Shown in pieces: positions 6,862 to 51,985 of a stretch of DNA of 64,000 nucleotides; within the stretch, counting starts at the first letter, position 1; each line of letters begins with the position of its first letter. The notes under the pieces are model-generated. The model was not told the DNA's origin, made no database searches, and saw only the letters and a program-made list of their open reading frames with translations. Both the position numbers and the translations under genes were made by a program. The stretch comes from Siphonodentalium dalli. Its lineage: Eukaryota; Mollusca; Scaphopoda; Gadilida; Siphonodentaliidae. The DNA lies in NCBI GenBank assembly GCA_032622095.1, contig CP136067.1, positions 80,068,705 through 80,132,704 of the forward strand, written 5' to 3'.

Positions 6862-8079
6862 CTAGTGAGCAAATTGCAGGTATTCCTTGAGATTTTCTGG
6901 GATAGGCAGGCATCTGATATCACTCAGATGTACAAGATGTAGTAAAGCCCGTCTGCAGATATGCTTCAACGAGTCTGTTATTATCGGAAGTTTGTACACA
7001 TAGATCCTACGTTTGTATGTAGTGTTTTGCATCATAGCAATTGCAGCTTCACTGGGTGAGAAATGTGGAAAGACTTGTAGATTAGTCACCTCTGAGATGG
7101 GCCAATAACGGCCTTTTACATTCACCATAAAAAGCAGATCCAACTCTGGGAAATTAAAAACTCCAATCATATTAACAGTAAACTCATTAGAATGAACAGG
7201 GGTCACGCATCTCACAGTTATGAAATCCCCTAATGCACTCGATTTGATTTGCTGAATTCCTGCTGGAAGACACAGAAAAGATTCCTGCCTCATAAGTTCC
7301 CATGAATCAGTGCGCCTCACCTCCAAATCACGGCCATAAGCAGTGACAAACATCTCATCACCTAATTTGATGTTGAACGTCAAACAATGCTGTCGCAATA
7401 TAGGAGCAACGACTCTCACTTTGAGTTGTGCACAATTGATATTTAGGTTCTGTACAACATAGTTATCTGGAACGACTAACACCCTGTTCAGATGATCAGG
7501 TCTGATCAGAATTCTTGTTTTGTTTGGAGAAATGTAGCATTCGTACCATCGTTTCGATTGATAAACCATAATGAAAGAAGCAACACATTCCTTCTTTTCC
7601 AGATCAATAACGTAAAATTTTGGCGTTAGATATCTATTATCTGTGAAAGCCTGGATGACCAGTAGGCCATCATGGTATGCAACTACAGACGATTCATGAC
7701 GCATCTGATGACGTGGCTGTCGTACCCAACGGTCATCATGTACATCAGGCAGAGGAACTCTGGGTAACTTCACTGCATTTGCAGTCCATGACTCTTTTTC
7801 TAAAATTAACACCTCGTGAGATTTTTTAAAATGTGGATGAAAATATCTTCCATTTGTCAGGTCAGGTTTCACTAGGATTCCTTGGCTTTTACATGGATCT
7901 CTTACTGATACATAGTCTGCTAGATCTGTGAACCCACACAATGTCTTTGAACTTTTAGCCCATCTACTGAGTGAACATGAATGAAGTTCTTCACCTTTAT
8001 GAGAGGAGTTGATCTTTTCAAGAAACTGGATGCGGTTTATCTTCTCATGTTTTTGTTGTTTGCCTCTAATATTTCCCAT
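6862..8079 (-). CDS. SOCS-box protein, probable beta-propeller, intronless
   Basis: Single uninterrupted frame of 405 residues. The C terminus (residues 370-403) is a clear SOCS box. Its BC box, SLKHICRRAL (370-379), fits the Elongin B/C-binding pattern, and LPIP (391-394) fits the Cullin-5 box, followed by ENLKEYL. Such proteins are substrate receptors of Cullin-5 ubiquitin ligases. Residues about 130-360 contain repeated blade-like segments (for example YISPNKTRILI and HFSPSEAAIAM), which suggests a WD-like beta-propeller as the substrate-binding part; this is an inference. The start is supported by an in-frame TGA 9 bases upstream and a good Kozak context (G at -3 and +4). The N terminus MGNIRGK could be N-myristoylated. 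There are no introns, unlike the neighbouring exchanger gene, so it may descend from a retrocopy or an intronless family. The substrate is unknown. Confidence 0.88.
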   Translation of the reverse strand: MGNIRGKQQKHEKINRIQFLEKINSSHKGEELHSCSLSRWAKSSKTLCGFTDLADYVSVRDPCKSQGILVKPDLTNGRYFHPHFKKSHEVLILEKESWTANAVKLPRVPLPDVHDDRWVRQPRHQMRHESSVVAYHDGLLVIQAFTDNRYLTPKFYVIDLEKKECVASFIMVYQSKRWYECYISPNKTRILIRPDHLNRVLVVPDNYVVQNLNINCAQLKVRVVAPILRQHCLTFNIKLGDEMFVTAYGRDLEVRRTDSWELMRQESFLCLPAGIQQIKSSALGDFITVRCVTPVHSNEFTVNMIGVFNFPELDLLFMVNVKGRYWPISEVTNLQVFPHFSPSEAAIAMMQNTTYKRRIYVYKLPIITDSLKHICRRALLHLVHLSDIRCLPIPENLKEYLQFAH

Positions 8080-8364
8080 TCCAATATATCAGAAGTTTTG
8101 ATATCGTTCATGAATTGCAGTCTAGCTTCTGACCATTATGTGCACTCCAATTTCAAATTCTGAAAGAGAAAATCACATAGCAAATTTAATAAAGAATGCA
8201 TGTTTTTCAGTGCTATATCAAAGAATTGTCAGAAATATTCTCCTAAAGGACCTTTAATTATTGGGATATAAAACATGTGGATGTATCTTTAATAAATCAT
8301 GTCAAGTTTTCTAATAAGTCATGTCAAGTTCAAATGCTACTTGCCGCATGGAAAATTGTTCTCA
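8080..8364 (-). other. Upstream region of the SOCS-box gene
   Basis: This is the only space between the start codon and the next dispersed repeat, so any promoter should lie here or further right. No TATA box or initiator could be assigned with confidence. An internal 26-bp near-duplication (TAATAAATCATGTCAAGTTTT and TAATAAGTCATGTCAAGTTC) sits at about 8289-8332. Confidence 0.35.
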
Positions 8365-19169: not shown

Positions 19170-19822
19170 CGGTGGCTGGTTTAGGACATTGTAAAAAAAA
19201 AGCTCGCACGTTCGAACGTGCGAGCCCTTACGTTCGAACGTGCGAGCCCTTACGTTCGAACGTGCGAGCCCTTGCGTTCGAACGTTGCATTCGAACGTGC
19301 GAGCCCTTGCGTTCGAACGTGCGAGCTCTTACGTTCGAACGTGCGAGCCATTGCGTTCGAACGTGCGAGCCCTTGCATTCGAACGTGCGAGCCATTGCAA
19401 TACTTGCTTCGTTCGAACGCACGTGATACATGCTCGCATGTTCGAACGTAAGAGCTCGCACGTTCGAACGCAAGGGCTCGCACGTTTGAACGCAAGAGCT
19501 CGCACGTTTGAACGCAAGAGCTCGCACGTTCGAACGTAAGAGCTCGCACGTTCGAACGTAAGAGCTCGCACGTTCGAACGCAAGGGCTCGCACGTTCGAA
19601 CGTAAGAGCTCTTGCTTCGAACGCAAGGGCTCGCACGTTCGAACGTAATGGCTCGCATGTTTGAACACAAGAGCTCGCACGTTTGGACGCAAGGGCTCGC
19701 ACGTTCGAACGCAAGGGCTCGCAAGTTCGAACGCAAGGGCTAGCACGTTCGAACTCTTGCGTTCGAACGTAAGGGCTCGCACGTTCGAGCTTTTTTTTTA
19801 CCATGTCCTAAACCAGCCACCG
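19170..19822. mobile_element. Foldback element made of 22-bp TTCGAACG minisatellite units
   Basis: The ends CGGTGGCTGGTTTAGGACAT and its complement (right end before 19822) are flanked by TA on both sides, followed inward by a run of A (left) or T (right). Between them lie about 27 units of about 22 bp with consensus GCTCGCACGTTCGAACGCAA. About nine are in one orientation on the left and about sixteen inverted on the right, with a unique spacer near 19395-19430 (TACTTGCTTCG). Each unit carries the palindrome CGTTCGAACG. The long frames of Arg/Ser/Cys repeats on both strands are translation artefacts of the units. Confidence 0.92.
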
Positions 19823-39200: not shown

Positions 39201-42200
39201 TATATTTATATAGAATCTATCACTTTACTTCAGTTAATACTGTTATTAGTATGAAAACTTGCATCTTCATGTATAAAAATTTAGCATGGTATTTCCTGAT
39301 AAGCCCTATTGCATAAAAACTGCAAAAAGCCTATAGATGGATATTTTTACCATTGAAGGCAATACCGTTTCGAACCAATATAATACATGTATTTGTACCA
39401 TTTTAGAATCATCGGTTTTATTCAGCCATGACTGTGGTGAACATTAAGTTACTAAGGCATTATCAAGCTCACAAATCTTCTCATTGCTTGGTAAACCTGT
39501 TATGTGGATTTCAGTCATTGGGAAGTATTTCTAATACAGGTGAGGGGGTGATATATCTTATACCACAAAAACCATCGCCGCGGGTCACCCACCTCCACGC
39601 AAAAACATCTCTGATGTGTAATCACACCACTACTCAAAGTTAATTCACATGTGTGTGCTGGTCACATACTATAGTATCAAACAATAGGACTAGAGTAAAT
39701 ATATGAATACAGGTGTAAAGTAAAGTGATTCAAGTGATCATCACAGAATACTATGCATTAATCCAGATGCCCAGCGACTGTATTATATGTACTGGATTAA
39801 CTGTAATTATGGTCTATCACTCATTTACAAAGTATCGGTACCTTCATCACAACCTGAGCAGATACATGTATCTTGGTGAGATCATCACCATAATCCATTG
39901 TATTGGATGCAATCTGGAAAAACCTGTGACTTGAAATTCTTAAGAGTATTTAGCTTAGGGCATGCTTTTTTGTGACTTTTCAGTGATAACCAAGACGCTC
40001 AAGATTGCGGAGTGAAGTTTATGATATCGTCCCATCAGTAGCATAGTTTTCTCCATGTGACACCAAAAACAGCCTATCCTAGTAGTTGTACAATATTAGC
40101 ACATGTATTATTTTGACAATTATGTGTTCTCTATATTTCGTAATCAAGATTATAAAGACATTTGTGATGCAGACCAGACTGGACCACCCTAGGTGGTCCA
40201 GTCTGGTCTGCATCACAAATGTCTTTATAATCTTGATTACGAAATATAGAGAACACATAATTGTCAAAATAATACATGTGCTAATATTGTACAACTACTA
40301 GGATAGGCTGTTTTTGGTGTCACATGGAGAAAACTATGCTACTGATGGGACGATATCATAAACTTCACTCCGCAATCTTGAGCGTCTTGGTTATCACTGA
40401 AAAGTCACAAAAAAGCATGCCCTAAGCTAAATACTCTTAAGAATTTCAAGTCACAGGTTTTTCCAGATTGCATCCAATACAATGGATTATGGTGATGATC
40501 TCACCAAGATACATGTATCTGCTCAGGTTGTGATGAAGGTACCGATACTTTGTAAATGAGTGATAGACCATAATTACAGTTAATCCAGTACATATAATAC
40601 AGTCGCTGGGCATCTGGATTAATGCATAGTATTCTGTGATGATCACTTGAATCACTTTACTTTACACCTGTATTCATATATTTACTCTAGTCCTAGGTGG
40701 TCCAGTCTAGCGTGGTCCAGTCCATTGACTAGGCAGTCCTGTCCGGTCCAGGCCATTCTGGTCTGGTATTCTTGTATGGAGTTGGACTGGTCCAAAGCGG
40801 TCTGGTCTACTTACATGTGAATGAATTACCCTTTTAGCCAAATCTATACATTATACTATACCAGGCCCATATAAAATGGACAATAGATACATGTGGCACT
40901 GTTATTTATAACACACATAGAAGCATACAGAGAATCGTACCGACAGGTGGCAAAGTCACCCCAACCCATGGGGTGACTTTGCCACCCAACTTTTTCAGTA
41001 CATGGACCATAACCACACATGAAATATATAGCATGAAGTTACCTGAGTTAAATGACTGTAGAACTGTTTTCTGAATTTAGCTTGTGACTGAATGCTGCAT
41101 AGAAATATGCCAAAAAGGTGGCAAAGTCACCCCGTTTTACGGTACTGTAAAATACTAGCATCTATATAAAAGTCTAACTCCATGAAAACTCAGGCCTCGA
41201 TTTGTTTTTTGTTTTAAACATTTTTAAAATCTGAACCTGACTGAAATCTGTAGTCTTACAATATATTATACTAGCAGGTGACCCGACTTCGTCCGGGCTT
41301 TGACCTTGAATTGACCATTTTGAAGGTCAAGGTCAGGTCGGGGTAACAATTTGACCCGTCCAAAACACTCCCCGGACAAAAGTATCCCTAGGTATAAAAT
41401 TTCGTCGAAATCCATCCGTTTTACCCGATTTGACCTTGAATTGACCATTTTGAAGGTCAGGTCGTGGTCACGATTTGACGCGTCAAAAACACTCCCCCGA
41501 CAAAAGTATCCCTAGGTGTCAAATTTCGTCGAAATCCGTTAATTTTTTTATTTAATTTGAGTTAATTCTGCCTTTTTAATCAAGTGAAATGATGGTACCC
41601 GTCCCGTGATGGTACCCGTCCCTAAAAGAGGTACGTTTGTGGGTACCCGTTTCAAGGTGAAGATCACCTCGGGCAGAAAAACTTACCCGATGAAAATCTC
41701 CCCCATTCCTTGGAACCCCTAAGTACGAAGACAGACATAAGAATCACACAACACACTCACGTCTGGCCCTAGACATAAGAATCACACTACACGCATGTAT
41801 ACGCTCTTTATCAACGACACTGCGGATACGAACGCTCTTTAACTATCAACGCGATTAACCCCACAGTGCCAAGGATGGTCATTTTGGTGACTGGGAGTGG
41901 AGAAGGGGTGCTGGGAGCTTCTCCAAAACGGTGGTAAACACTGCTCGTGTGTTTTTAACCTTAGATCAGCTGCTTAGATCGGAAGTTTGAGCTCAATCGG
42001 TCCAGCAATTTTCCCGGCCATAGCTAACACACAGACAGAAGTCCCAAATATATATTAGACTAGCTGGGTACCCGTCCTGACGGGGTAGAGACGTTGTGTT
42101 GTTTTTTTACATCAACACCCTGAAAATGGTGGAAATCGGCCCAGCGGATACCGAGGTACAGGCTCAAGGTCATTTTAAAGGTCAAGGTCACGCCGCAGGG

Positions 42201-45200
42201 GCATCCGGGTGTGACGAAATTGATCAGTGCATCAAACTACCCGTCCCGAGATAGAGGTATCAAGCTTCAAAAGAATCGAGTTACGCAATTTCAATGTAAA
42301 TAAACCAAACGTCTGTTACACGGCTTTAACAAAAATTTCGGCCTGTGGACAATGATGTTTAGAAGGTGATTCTTCCGTCCACTATTCTCCTCAAACCAAC
42401 CTCGAAGTCCACTGTGGGGACGTATCAGGCGCTGATCTGAGAAGAACAGATACTACACTTTGATCTCAGCCAAAAGGCCGAGAAGCGTAACTCTACAGGA
42501 CTTCGCACTAAGCGAGGTGTGGAAAATAAATGCTCATTGAAACTATCAAACTATAAAACAGTCAACAGTCTGAATTAACAAAAAGAATGTCTGAAGTCGA
42601 AGCGTTGCGTCGAACAACAAAACCTTCACCAGCCTCATATACAAACATAACTGTACAGGACTTCGCACTAATCGTAAATGCTCATTGTAAACTATAAAAC
42701 AGTCAAAAGTCTGAATTAACAAAAAGTATGTCTGAAGTCGAAGCGTTGCGTCGAACAACAAAACCTTCGCCAGCCTCATATACAGATAAAGAGCGTTGTT
42801 AAGTTAATCAACCCGAATATGGAAAATATAAAGAGCGTTGTTTGTAAGGCAATTTAGCTCAGCGGATCCGGAGATATGAGTTTTGAAGGTGAAGGTCACG
42901 CCGCCGAACAAATGGATGGGCCTATGTTGGTCCTCGGGTGATACTACGTGCCCGTACCAAGTTTCGTCGAAATCGGTTTAGCCATTTTAGAGTCCATCGC
43001 GGCCACACACACAGACACACACACAGACACACAAACTTTCCTCAAATATATATTAGATGTATAGCTCTAACTACAGACAAATTCAGACCGCCATTCTGTT
43101 TTAGTTTGATTTATTTGTAATTTGTAATTGATTAGCAGGTTTTGACTTGCCAATGATTAGTGAGATGGGAGAACAATTAAAATTTTTAATTGGAAAATTC
43201 CCGTCAAATGTTTTGACCGAATGTAGGAAATTCCCCACTAATTACTAATTATCCCCACCCCCATATTTACGCCCGAGTCCCTGTTACGACAGACGTTGTA
43301 TGTATATTTTTATTCTATTCTCTCAACTCACGACAGGAGCTAGCATTCTTAAAGAATGCCCTGGGTATTCTTAAAGAATGCCAATGCCCACGGGCATTCT
43401 TAAAAAAGAATGACCATGGGTGTTTAATAATGCTCATGCGATCAAAAAGCTTGAGCATTCTGCCAGATAAGAGCCGTGTCAGGGCAAAGGGATAACACGC
43501 CAGTGGGTTTTAATAAGAAATAATATCAGTTTCCTAAGGTGATTACAAAGCTAAAATGCATCATACATCATCATATAACTACTAAGTGATTATACATTTA
43601 CGATTTATTAAGAAACAATTTGGTTGATATAAGTACCCTATTACTTTATACTTTATACTCGGTAATTATATATGCACACACACAAAGAAGCTTCCATTTG
43701 AAGATGAATTTGAGATATTTGCATGCAAACTGTAAACTCGCCTTTATTTAGAAGCACTCGCATTGGGCTGAATTGGTGTCAAACCAGGAGATAGTTATTT
43801 TTTATATTGACTTCTTTCTTTGTCGATCGATCCGGTTCGATGGCAGTCGAGGGTCTTCTGCGCGGTATATTTGAAATCTTGAACAGATGGATATATAAAA
43901 GTAATATCTCATCAATTTATTGTACTAATTTTGTAGATTATATATATAATTATTTTTGTTTTTTTATGTGTTCAGAATCCCGCCGATATCACAACGGGGC
44001 GGCGCATCAGTAGTTACATTACAACTGGAAATAATATTCCGATGCTCTGACATAACCTGATTTCGCAAAGTAAATTTGTGCAATAAAAGCAGAAAGATCC
44101 ACTTTGAGTCATAAATTTGGAATTGCAATGGTCGAGTTCTCAAATTAAACAACAATTGTGACACTTAATGAATATGTTTCACAATTCGTTTGTGAAGAGG
44201 TTCACCTAAATTCAATATTGAGACAAATTTTTTTTTTGACGCAAATTTGCAACCAGTGAACCAGAGTGAACCATGTGTTTCTGTTTCGTTTGTTTTCATT
44301 TTGTCAGCCAATACGAGACTGAGTATATCAACATTTTGTAATTATATAGGAACATTTTGTAATATATAGGAACATTTTGTAATATATAGGAAGGCAAGAT
44401 GTAAATTTGTGCCTTCATTATAATTTTAGTTGATTAAAACAAATTTATTATAAAAGTCTTTTTTCATGGCTGAAGTGACAATCATAATGGAACTCGACAA
44501 GAAAAACATACGAGTGGCCAGTTCCGCAACTGTGATGTTGAGATTTTGCTTAGCTGTGGCCGATTTTAATTAGGACTGGGAAAATTTTTCATATTGCACT
44601 ATTTGAAAACATAAAATCACCATCTAAGATTCCAATAAATATCAATTTCAAGTTGTACGCAATTAATCAACAAGGAAGCATCTCTGACAACAAATTTTGT
44701 CTTCGTCACAATCACGTGTTTCTATTTCGTTTGTTTTCATTTTGTCAGCCAAAACAGTATTCTAAATCACCATTTTGCAAATCTAAAGCCTAGTAGAACA
44801 AAACACAATCAATGTAAATCGTCATTATTCCTCTTTATTCGCGTCTCAAATCCGAGTGTTGAAAATGCAAAAAATTAAAGACGTCAAAAGACGATATGGA
44901 CGCTACAACAAAAGACATCACATGCCGATATGGATGCCACATCAAAAGACGATACGTTGGAATAAGGGTAAATTGCCTCACCCCTTTATGACTGTGAGGT
45001 TGTTATTATACATGTACTTTGATTTGTGTGAATCATGTGATTACAAATTCAGCATGACCTGGACACACCCTCCTGTAAAATGTTATTTCACTTTAAGGAG
45101 AGACGTTCCTTGGAGTATCAGGCGTGCTAGCTGTTGTTGTCCTTGGAGTAACAATGAGTGCTGAGAGAACGTCTATTAGCCCTGAGGTGGAGAGATTCCT

Positions 45201-48200
45201 GCACAGGTATAAAACTGATATTAGCCATGAGGTGGTGCGAGTCCTTAACAGTATAAAACTGATATTAGCCCTCTGGTGGAGCGAGTCCTAAACAGGTATA
45301 AAACTGATATCAGCCCTGATGTGGAGTGATTCCTGCAAATGTATAAAACTGATATTAGCCCTGAGGTGGAGTGATTGCTGAACAGGTATACAACTAATGT
45401 TAGCCTTGCCTGGAGTGATCCTTGAAAGAGACCTATGTGAAACTGATATTAGCCCTGAGGTGGAGCAATTCATGTACAGTTATAAAACTGATATTAGCCC
45501 TGAGGTGGAGTGATTCGCGTACAAGTATTAAACTTATATTAACCTTGCGTAGAATTATTCATGCACAGACCTTCATACAACTAATATTAGCCCTGAGTTA
45601 GAGATATTTCTTCAGAGGTATAAAATGTATATTAGCCCTGAAGTGGAGGATTCCTGCACAGGTATAAAATAGAGAGAAATCAATTGGTGAAAAATTCACA
45701 AGGGGAGCCATCACTAAAAGGAGCTATTCTAAAGACAATATGTGACAAATAGTCCCGATCAGCTGATGCGCTCACCACGGACATAATTCACAGGTGTGGT
45801 ATTATCACTTTTAATTTACTGAGAAATCCTTATAAATCACGACCGAGTGTGTAATAAATAGAGAGTACTCAATTTGTTCTGAGAATTATATTAAATAATT
45901 CTCAAGAGGCGAGAGACGTCAATAAGAAATGAGTGCGCGTTAGCACACAAGTTTCTTGCCTAAAGGTCTCTCGCCTCAAGTCAATGATGTCACAAGAAAT
46001 AACGTTAATTCACTAGTGACATTACCATTTTTAATTAACCGCGTTTTCATTGGAACTCGCGAAGAGAAGTGTAATTGACTGATATTAACCCTGAGGTGGA
46101 GATCCAGTTGCATACTGGAAGTTTGATCGTTCTGCAGTGAAGTCGTCACTGAGACAAATTTAGTTTAAACAATATTTTATTCCAAATCAAAAGATATAAC
46201 ATAAACATTACACATACTGGTACATAAAGATTCAGAATGAGTATCAGACAACAAGTTGATATTAGCTTCTTTAACCCTTTCATGACGGGAGCTTATTTAG
46301 GCGCCCTATGGGTGACTCCCATATATATAAGAGAATGCACAATTGCACAGGGTTTTCGCCAAAATTCAGGAAGCTCCAGCCATGAAAGGGTTCGATCAAG
46401 ATTTGTATTTACATTAACAAACGTTTATTGGGGTAACTCAGTTCAGCGCCCGTACAACTTCCTGTTAATCGTACCTAAAGTAAACAACTTTCTGGTTGAA
46501 CTCAATTACATGACTCCTAGCTGCATGGTGACTTATTTGACATGCATTGTCAATGACAGACACTCTACTCCAAATTTGTGCATGCTTTACAGATGGTGCT
46601 GTTGAAGCGAAAATTAAAGTTAGTAGCTCTTGACCAATCAGAATGCATTGTTTAGCAACAAATATCCAACTTGAATTACAATGCAATTAACATTCTCACT
46701 ATTTCTTGATTTTTTTTGGTGCAAATTATAGGTTTTGGGAAGTCCTAGCTTATCTGACCAACACGCTGATATTCATTATTGTGGGCGTCGTCATCTCCCA
46801 GAAGGCGATGAACCAAATCCATGGAATTGATTGGTTCTACATGTTTGGATTATACTTTGGACTGAATGTCATCAGGTATTTAACCCTTTATCAAATAACA
46901 TATCTAGTTACGCCATATAGTCATATAGCCAACATCGCCAGGTTCAAGTTCAAAGGCAATTACGTTAGCCAACTAGTATGGTCTTTGGAGGTTAGACCCA
47001 GAAAATAATTGGTAAATTTTGGCAATTTTGATGTCATTCGACACGGGGAAAATCTCTTTTATAACATATCTGAAATCCACTAAAATCTAATTTGGGTAAA
47101 ATCCGGAATTCAAGATGGCGTCCAATATGGCCGCCGATAATAATGGAAATCACAAATAGGTAGTTATTCATGAAAATCTACAATGAAAATGCGAATTCGG
47201 CACCAACATATATCACTGATTGCAACCAGTATGTTGTGGAAGGTGTGTGTAGCCAAGCATGAATCAACATTAAAGATGGCTACCAAAATGGTCACCGAAA
47301 ATTGTCAATTTTTATGTTTTGTTCAGATGAATGCCAAAACAACTCTTCAGTTGTGCATAACCGATGCTAGACTCATTAAATATTTAGTCAATACTATTTG
47401 CCACCACAATGAGTCCCACATATTAGAGCCAAATTGTTCCAACGAAGCAGTATCTACTGCAGGACCAAACATGATGCACACTTACAATGGAGGCTTCCTG
47501 GAAATTATGTAGAGATTAATCAGATTGCTTATGAAACTGTATAATATTGCCATAGTGTCCATTTTTATGTATAACCACAATTCAGAACTTTTCCATCAAA
47601 TATATGGACATCAGTGGTCTAGTCTGTATGGTGCATAAGCAATGACATTATGCGGCAATGGGTCATCCAGGGATGGCGAAGCTGGAAAGGACACTGAAGA
47701 GCACGTAATCTGGGGTTCATGCAATTGCAAAGGGAGGGTAGCATAAGTATAATTTGTGTATGTGGTCAAACTAGGAGTTTTATATCCCTCTAATATGAAA
47801 AATGTTGAATATTTCTTCACTTCCATCCATTCAATTGATATGGAGATGTATTTGAAAATCACAATTAAAATTTACCTAGTTGAGGGTCATTTTCGAAATT
47901 GGTTGGACCTGATTTGGACAAGCCTTCTGGGGTTGCTTCAGTCAAGCGCACAACTCTGTGAATATTTTCGAGGAGGAAAAATGTAATGTTGCCCACATAG
48001 AAAATTGATGTTTCTAAGTATCTTCTTAATAAATTTTGTCGTTACAAGTTCCAGAATGATGGTAACGGACGTACCTATTTTCGGTAACTGACGTACCCTT
48101 GTGAAACTAAGATCATTGGGCCCATCAATTGTGGCCAAAATCAATTGAGAAGTTATTGAAACATAACAAAGTAAACAGTCTAATATCATTGTAGCAAGTG

Positions 48201-51936: not shown

Positions 51937-51985
<49 letters not shown>

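Follow-up and report, generated by a model that had tools for sequence, protein, structure and literature searches.

At the 5′ end of one intron in the genome of the scaphopod Siphonodentalium dalli, an exon-intron junction has been multiplied into a minisatellite, which raises the question of whether the repeated 5′ splice sites do anything for their gene or are merely left over from the growth of the repeat. The window analysed is the whole stretch of 64,000 nucleotides in which the array lies, and all coordinates refer to it. The coding exons on the two sides of the intron are:

45098-45206, + strand: coding exon ("exon 6") of an SLC9C-like sperm Na+/H+ exchanger gene, 109 nt, ending in CTGCACAG
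46732-46875, + strand: next coding exon (exon 7), with donor CAG|GTATTT and a translation that matches sperm-specific Na+/H+ exchangers

Exon 6 is bordered by the acceptor TTTAAG|GA and the donor CAG|GTATAA, and it joins exon 7 in phase 2 (HR|FW) to give ...SISPEVERFLHR|FWEVLAYL..., a translation with its best match to PDB 8xq8 and other sperm-specific Na+/H+ exchangers (E 2e-28; next group 8.8e-12). The peptide TSISPEVE.FLHRFWE is common to this translation and the sperm-specific exchangers of solved structure, those matched being presumably from sea urchin. The exon number is that of the original prediction and is nominal: four upstream coding exons were read (at about 26.48, 27.62, 30.83 and 36.7 kb) and the first exon was not identified. 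Six joined exons match sperm-specific exchangers with an E-value of 6.9e-97 (the exon 3 part of the query being inexact), and no stops or frameshifts were seen in the exons read. The Pfam family Na_H_Exchanger is above its cut-off for exon 2 and just below it for an exon-like piece near 58.1 kb (24.4 against 26.2 bits), and a Pfam search with the exon 5 stretch gave no match. A second later exon-like piece, near 63.1 kb, is a putative exchanger exon by its resemblance to exchanger sequence. SLC9C sperm Na+/H+ exchangers possess voltage-sensor and cyclic-nucleotide-binding domains in addition to the transporter; the host gene is annotated here as an SLC9C-like sperm Na+/H+ exchanger by its best match over the transporter domain.

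The array begins within exon 6 and continues into the intron:

45174-45218, + strand: unit 1, made of 33 nt from the 3′ end of the exon and the 12 intron nt that follow them, with the presumed true donor at 45206|45207
45219-45673, + strand: units 2-11, diverged tandem copies in the intron, with an approximate end (45669-45673)

The division of unit 1 into exon and intron bases follows from the phase-2 join, which places the end of the exon at 45206 with a translation that matches exchangers. According to TRF the array spans 45174-45669, with a score of 447, a period of 45, 73% matches and 10.9 copies, and cutting at the unit head resolves 45174-45673 into 11 head-to-tail units of 45, 44, 45, 45, 45, 49, 45, 45, 48, 45 and 44 bp, where the end of unit 11 at 45673 is a choice, similarity stopping at 45669-45672. 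These results bear out the original prediction that a 45-bp unit taken from the two sides of the junction is followed directly by about ten diverged copies, the first of which is 44 bp long. Minisatellites are tandem arrays with units of roughly 10-100 bp, and their copy number usually varies among individuals, although this is not a requirement; with 11 units of period 45 in one haplotype, the array falls within that range. The 19-base unit head, with up to three mismatches allowed, occurs at 10 places in the window, all within 45174-46101, compared with a mean of 0.00 in 100 dinucleotide shuffles. Among the 31 hand-merged tandem-repeat loci of the window, the 45-bp array is the one locus that overlaps any of the six exons compared.

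Alignment of the units gives some indication of how they are related. Units 6 and 9 both carry CCTTG, a lost base and extra bases at the donor, and may descend from one altered copy. Unit position 20 is A in units 1 and 10, a gap in unit 11, and T or C in units 2-9, a pattern that suggests growth of the array from inside. A higher-order repeat, for which TRF periods of 139 and 184 made a candidate, was rejected: adjacent blocks of two, three and four units are 66-83% alike, with no clear recent block duplication.

Beyond unit 11, the intron contains a gap and then one more piece of the repeat:

45670-46078, + strand: gap between unit 11 and the 12th copy, 409 nt unlike the unit, with GTATAAAA at its left and CTGATATTAACCC at its right
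46079-46101, + strand: 12th, truncated copy, consisting of CTGA and a 19-nt unit head at 46083-46101

The 12th partial copy is new here, the original prediction having ended with the array proper. It equals the unit head at 18 of 19 bases (nhmmer E 9.5e-4) and is directly preceded by CTGA, the normal end of a unit. When a profile of the 11 units was run against the window with nhmmer, unfiltered and with hits accepted up to E 1, those 11 and the copy at 46083 were the only ones found. This stray copy suggests that the array was formerly longer or was split by an insertion; the 409 nt that separate it from unit 11 are a probable insertion into an older, longer array. Other than a 25-nt self-inverted match, blastn within the window found no other copy of these 409 nt. 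Farther along the same intron, 46299-46392 resembles sequences at 27.1-27.3, 31.1-31.3 and 61.7-61.9 kb (73-81% identity, both strands) and is probably a dispersed element.

The exon is the source of the array because unit 1 resembles the other units most closely on average (mean identity 0.838, versus 0.647-0.805 for the rest) and a branch length of about zero in the unit tree (45 sites, node supports 0.36-0.91), so the array grew out of the exon-intron junction, as originally proposed. The opposite derivation, of the exon from the array, does not hold, since the exon peptide is common to the sperm exchangers of solved structure. Unit 1 is also the best partner of six of the ten copies, and it differs from the majority of the other ten units at two positions, the lowest number among the 11, compared with an average of 6.8 in units 2-11 (Poisson P 0.034, to be taken only as a guide, the copies not being independent and unit 11 having three differences). 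Unit 11, the last of the array, shares 93% identity with unit 1. Because the array's source is a conserved coding exon whose splice site presumably works, the founding unit of this minisatellite can be identified directly.

With each copy of the unit came a copy of the donor, five of which deserve individual description:

45247-45256, + strand: donor position of unit 2, AACA|GTATAA, with one base missing, hence a 44-bp unit and a frame shift
45293-45301, + strand: donor copy of unit 3, CAG|GTATAA, the same 9-mer as the true donor, +89 nt
45383-45391, + strand: donor copy of unit 5, CAG|GTATAC, +179 nt
45615-45623, + strand: donor copy of unit 10, GAG|GTATAA, +411 nt
45659-45667, + strand: donor copy of unit 11, CAG|GTATAA, +455 nt

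GT is kept at the homologous place in seven of the ten downstream copies (units 2, 3, 4, 5, 8, 10 and 11) and lost in units 6, 7 and 9. The several copies that had been said to keep CAG|GTATA number three of ten (units 3, 5 and 11), and unit 10 has GAG|GTATA. Around the donor of unit 11, all 21 nt of 45649-45669 are identical to the surroundings of the true donor. The computed energy of the duplex with U1 is -7.2 kcal/mol for the true donor and likewise for units 3, 5 and 11; the other copies are weaker, at -5.8 (unit 10), -3.4 (unit 8), -2.9 (unit 2) and -1.9 kcal/mol (unit 4). When 1500 GT sites were taken at random from the window, 2% equalled or exceeded the true donor in strength. Together with the donor of exon 7 (-7.2), the true donor is the weakest of six donors scored in the gene, the other four ranging from -7.5 to -10.9. 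Duplex energy is a crude measure: a second, exon-derived site, GAG|GTGGAG, scores between -6.2 and -7.8 in units 5, 7 and 8, and in units 5 and 8 its -7.8 is stronger than the true donor.

What would follow from use of these downstream donors is determined by the lost base of unit 2 and by one stop codon:

45289-45291, + strand: TAA stop, in frame from the exon when the homologous donor of unit 3 or of any later unit is used

A splice from the unit 2 donor would retain 44 nt and shift the frame, with a stop in exon 7, and the six GT-keeping donors from unit 3 onward (+89, +134, +179, +318, +411 and +455 nt) all meet the TAA at 45289. Therefore, none of the seven homologous downstream donors that keep GT leads to an extension that is open and in frame, and none gives a longer protein.

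Set beside the anatomy, exon origin, donor remnants and reading frames described above, the preferred reading, to which a rough probability of 0.78 may be given, is that a minisatellite was seeded on the splice junction and is now drifting, with the exon's own donor in use and downstream use unproductive. A segment across the exon-intron junction would have been tandemly duplicated, and its copies would have multiplied, probably by replication slippage or unequal exchange, so that the intron now opens with a 45-bp minisatellite. The downstream copies would then have drifted, and the exon copy, being coding and holding the working donor, would have stayed near its ancestral form. Splicing most likely still takes place at 45206|45207, aided by exon definition, the exon being 109 nt long. 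If the better copies (units 3, 5, 10 and 11) were used now and then, the resulting mRNA would have a premature stop and would be expected to go by nonsense-mediated decay. The spare donors look like decaying by-products. Splicing may not use the first donor cleanly, because units 3, 5 and 11 equal it in U1 energy, GAG|GTGGAG is stronger in units 5 and 8, and among donors of equal strength the intron-proximal ones are often preferred; that several copies equal the true donor by U1 pairing is what speaks most against a wholly passive role.

That the array has such an active role, as a control by unproductive splicing, is unlikely. The downstream donors would make poison exon extensions that tune the exchanger mRNA, and the number of copies would affect the output. 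In keeping with this, four fair donors persist (units 3, 5 and 11 at -7.2 and unit 10 at -5.8 kcal/mol), each leading to the TAA at 45289, and they would compete with a true donor that is among the weakest of those scored in the gene. Against it, GT has been lost in three of ten copies and the donor positions are kept no better than the rest of the unit. In comparisons of low power (45 sites and 10 related copies), departures from unit 1 occupy 17 of 90 cells at the positions of the donor 9-mer and 59 of 360 at the others (Fisher P 0.64), and 59 of 330 at exon-derived and 17 of 120 at intron-derived positions (P 0.40); of the 20 GT cells, 4 are changed where the rate at the other positions predicts 3.3; and at codon positions 1, 2 and 3 the changed cells number 26, 17 and 16, each out of 110, without the third-position excess that coding constraint on the copies would leave. 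Since change has been as great at the donor positions as elsewhere in the unit, nothing in this weak test shows selection on the ladder of donors, and nothing in the copies appears to depart from drift as far as such low power can tell. A working dial, in which the copy number varies between individuals and tunes the level of the sperm exchanger, is improbable; alleles with a 45-bp second unit could in that case also add 15 or 30 residues.

It is very doubtful that the repeat was made by the assembler. The window does contain another suspicious feature, a perfect inverted repeat at 39685-40695 with two 504-nt arms that are 100% complementary and 3 nt apart, which is either a very young foldback element or a hairpin-read assembly artefact. 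However, the units of the array differ mutually by 7-48%, unlike a false duplication, and the 12th copy stands apart from the array.

The original prediction also held that downstream donors could lengthen the protein in steps, which would be of 15 residues each, and cautioned that little read-through would survive the 44-bp unit and the stops after it. The caution was justified; stepwise lengthening is not supported in the present haplotype and is hardly credible as an explanation of the array. The common unit is indeed 45 bp, and four of the ten downstream units (2, 3, 7 and 10) are free of stops when read alone in the frame of the exon, but the 44 bp of unit 2 followed by the TAA at 45289 close all seven homologous joins. 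The intron has 85 GT sites, the true donor among them; apart from it, only two non-homologous sites with weak U1 pairing are open and in frame through exon 7, CTG|GTGGAG at +69 (-4.6 kcal/mol) and CGA|GTCCTA at +78 (-1.8 kcal/mol).

Just as hard to credit is a use of CAG|GT as back-to-back acceptor and donor, whether in recursive splicing or as a source from which a new intron could arise under the duplicated-AGGT model: AG|GT is present in units 1, 3, 5, 10 and 11, but pyrimidines make up only 35-41% of the bases before AG in units 1, 3, 5 and 11, versus 59-71% at five real acceptors of the gene, and recursive splicing was rejected on these weak tracts, unit 10 (59%) excepted. The excerpted account of PMC4974935 does describe introns gained elsewhere by tandem duplication of AGGT-containing segments, as well as a 24-bp exonic segment that is repeated multiple times in fission yeasts. 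The duplicated segment of the SLC9C-like gene resembles those in carrying AG|GT and differs from them, as far as that account goes, in that it straddles an existing exon-intron boundary and that no new intron is evident.

No such array in SLC9C turned up among the listed titles and abstracts of the literature searches, and the closest known case is the minisatellite of human IFI6 (6-16, G1P3). It has a 12-bp unit, compared with 45 bp here, and its multiple splice donor sites were reportedly described by Turri, Cuin and Porter in 1995. According to the excerpted account of PMC4526556, the IFI6 (6-16) minisatellite provides multiple splice donor sites, and two downstream repeat units serve as donors, giving rise to three mRNA species that encode different isoforms. 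Like that minisatellite, the SLC9C-like array lies at the end of an exon and repeats the 5′ splice site so that donors stand in a row, with a unit that spans the junction (33 + 12 nt) and GT in seven of ten copies. Unlike the IFI6 copies, which yield isoforms, the SLC9C-like copies, if used, would break the frame or meet a stop, with none of seven predicted joins open and in frame. The statement in the original prediction that no case is described for this gene is therefore not contradicted by the literature search, but the kind has a precedent in IFI6 (PMC4526556, as excerpted), and a new mechanism is unlikely.

Internal tandem repeats at exon-intron boundaries are also described for human segmental-duplication genes, where, in the excerpts of PMC2812944, 162 alignments had repeats at boundaries and inspection left 27 intron modifications. 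Those repeats, with units of about 30 bp on average and altered gene structures, resemble the present array in placing minisatellite units at an exon-intron boundary; they are differences between recent paralogues, whereas the present case is a diverged array in a single gene. As a natural series of donor copies in graded decay within one transcript, the array could be useful for testing how the spliceosome chooses among equal donors.

Three further features of the window may be mentioned. On the - strand, 6865-8088 is an open frame of 408 amino acids with a C-terminal SOCS box (Pfam PF07525, E 4.7e-7) and no further Pfam match at E 0.01. Two neighbouring 22-bp arrays, at 19208-19399 and 19432-19754, have their units (CGTTCGAACGTGCGAGC...) in opposite orientation. 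At 51938-51984 on the + strand there is a run of 47 C.
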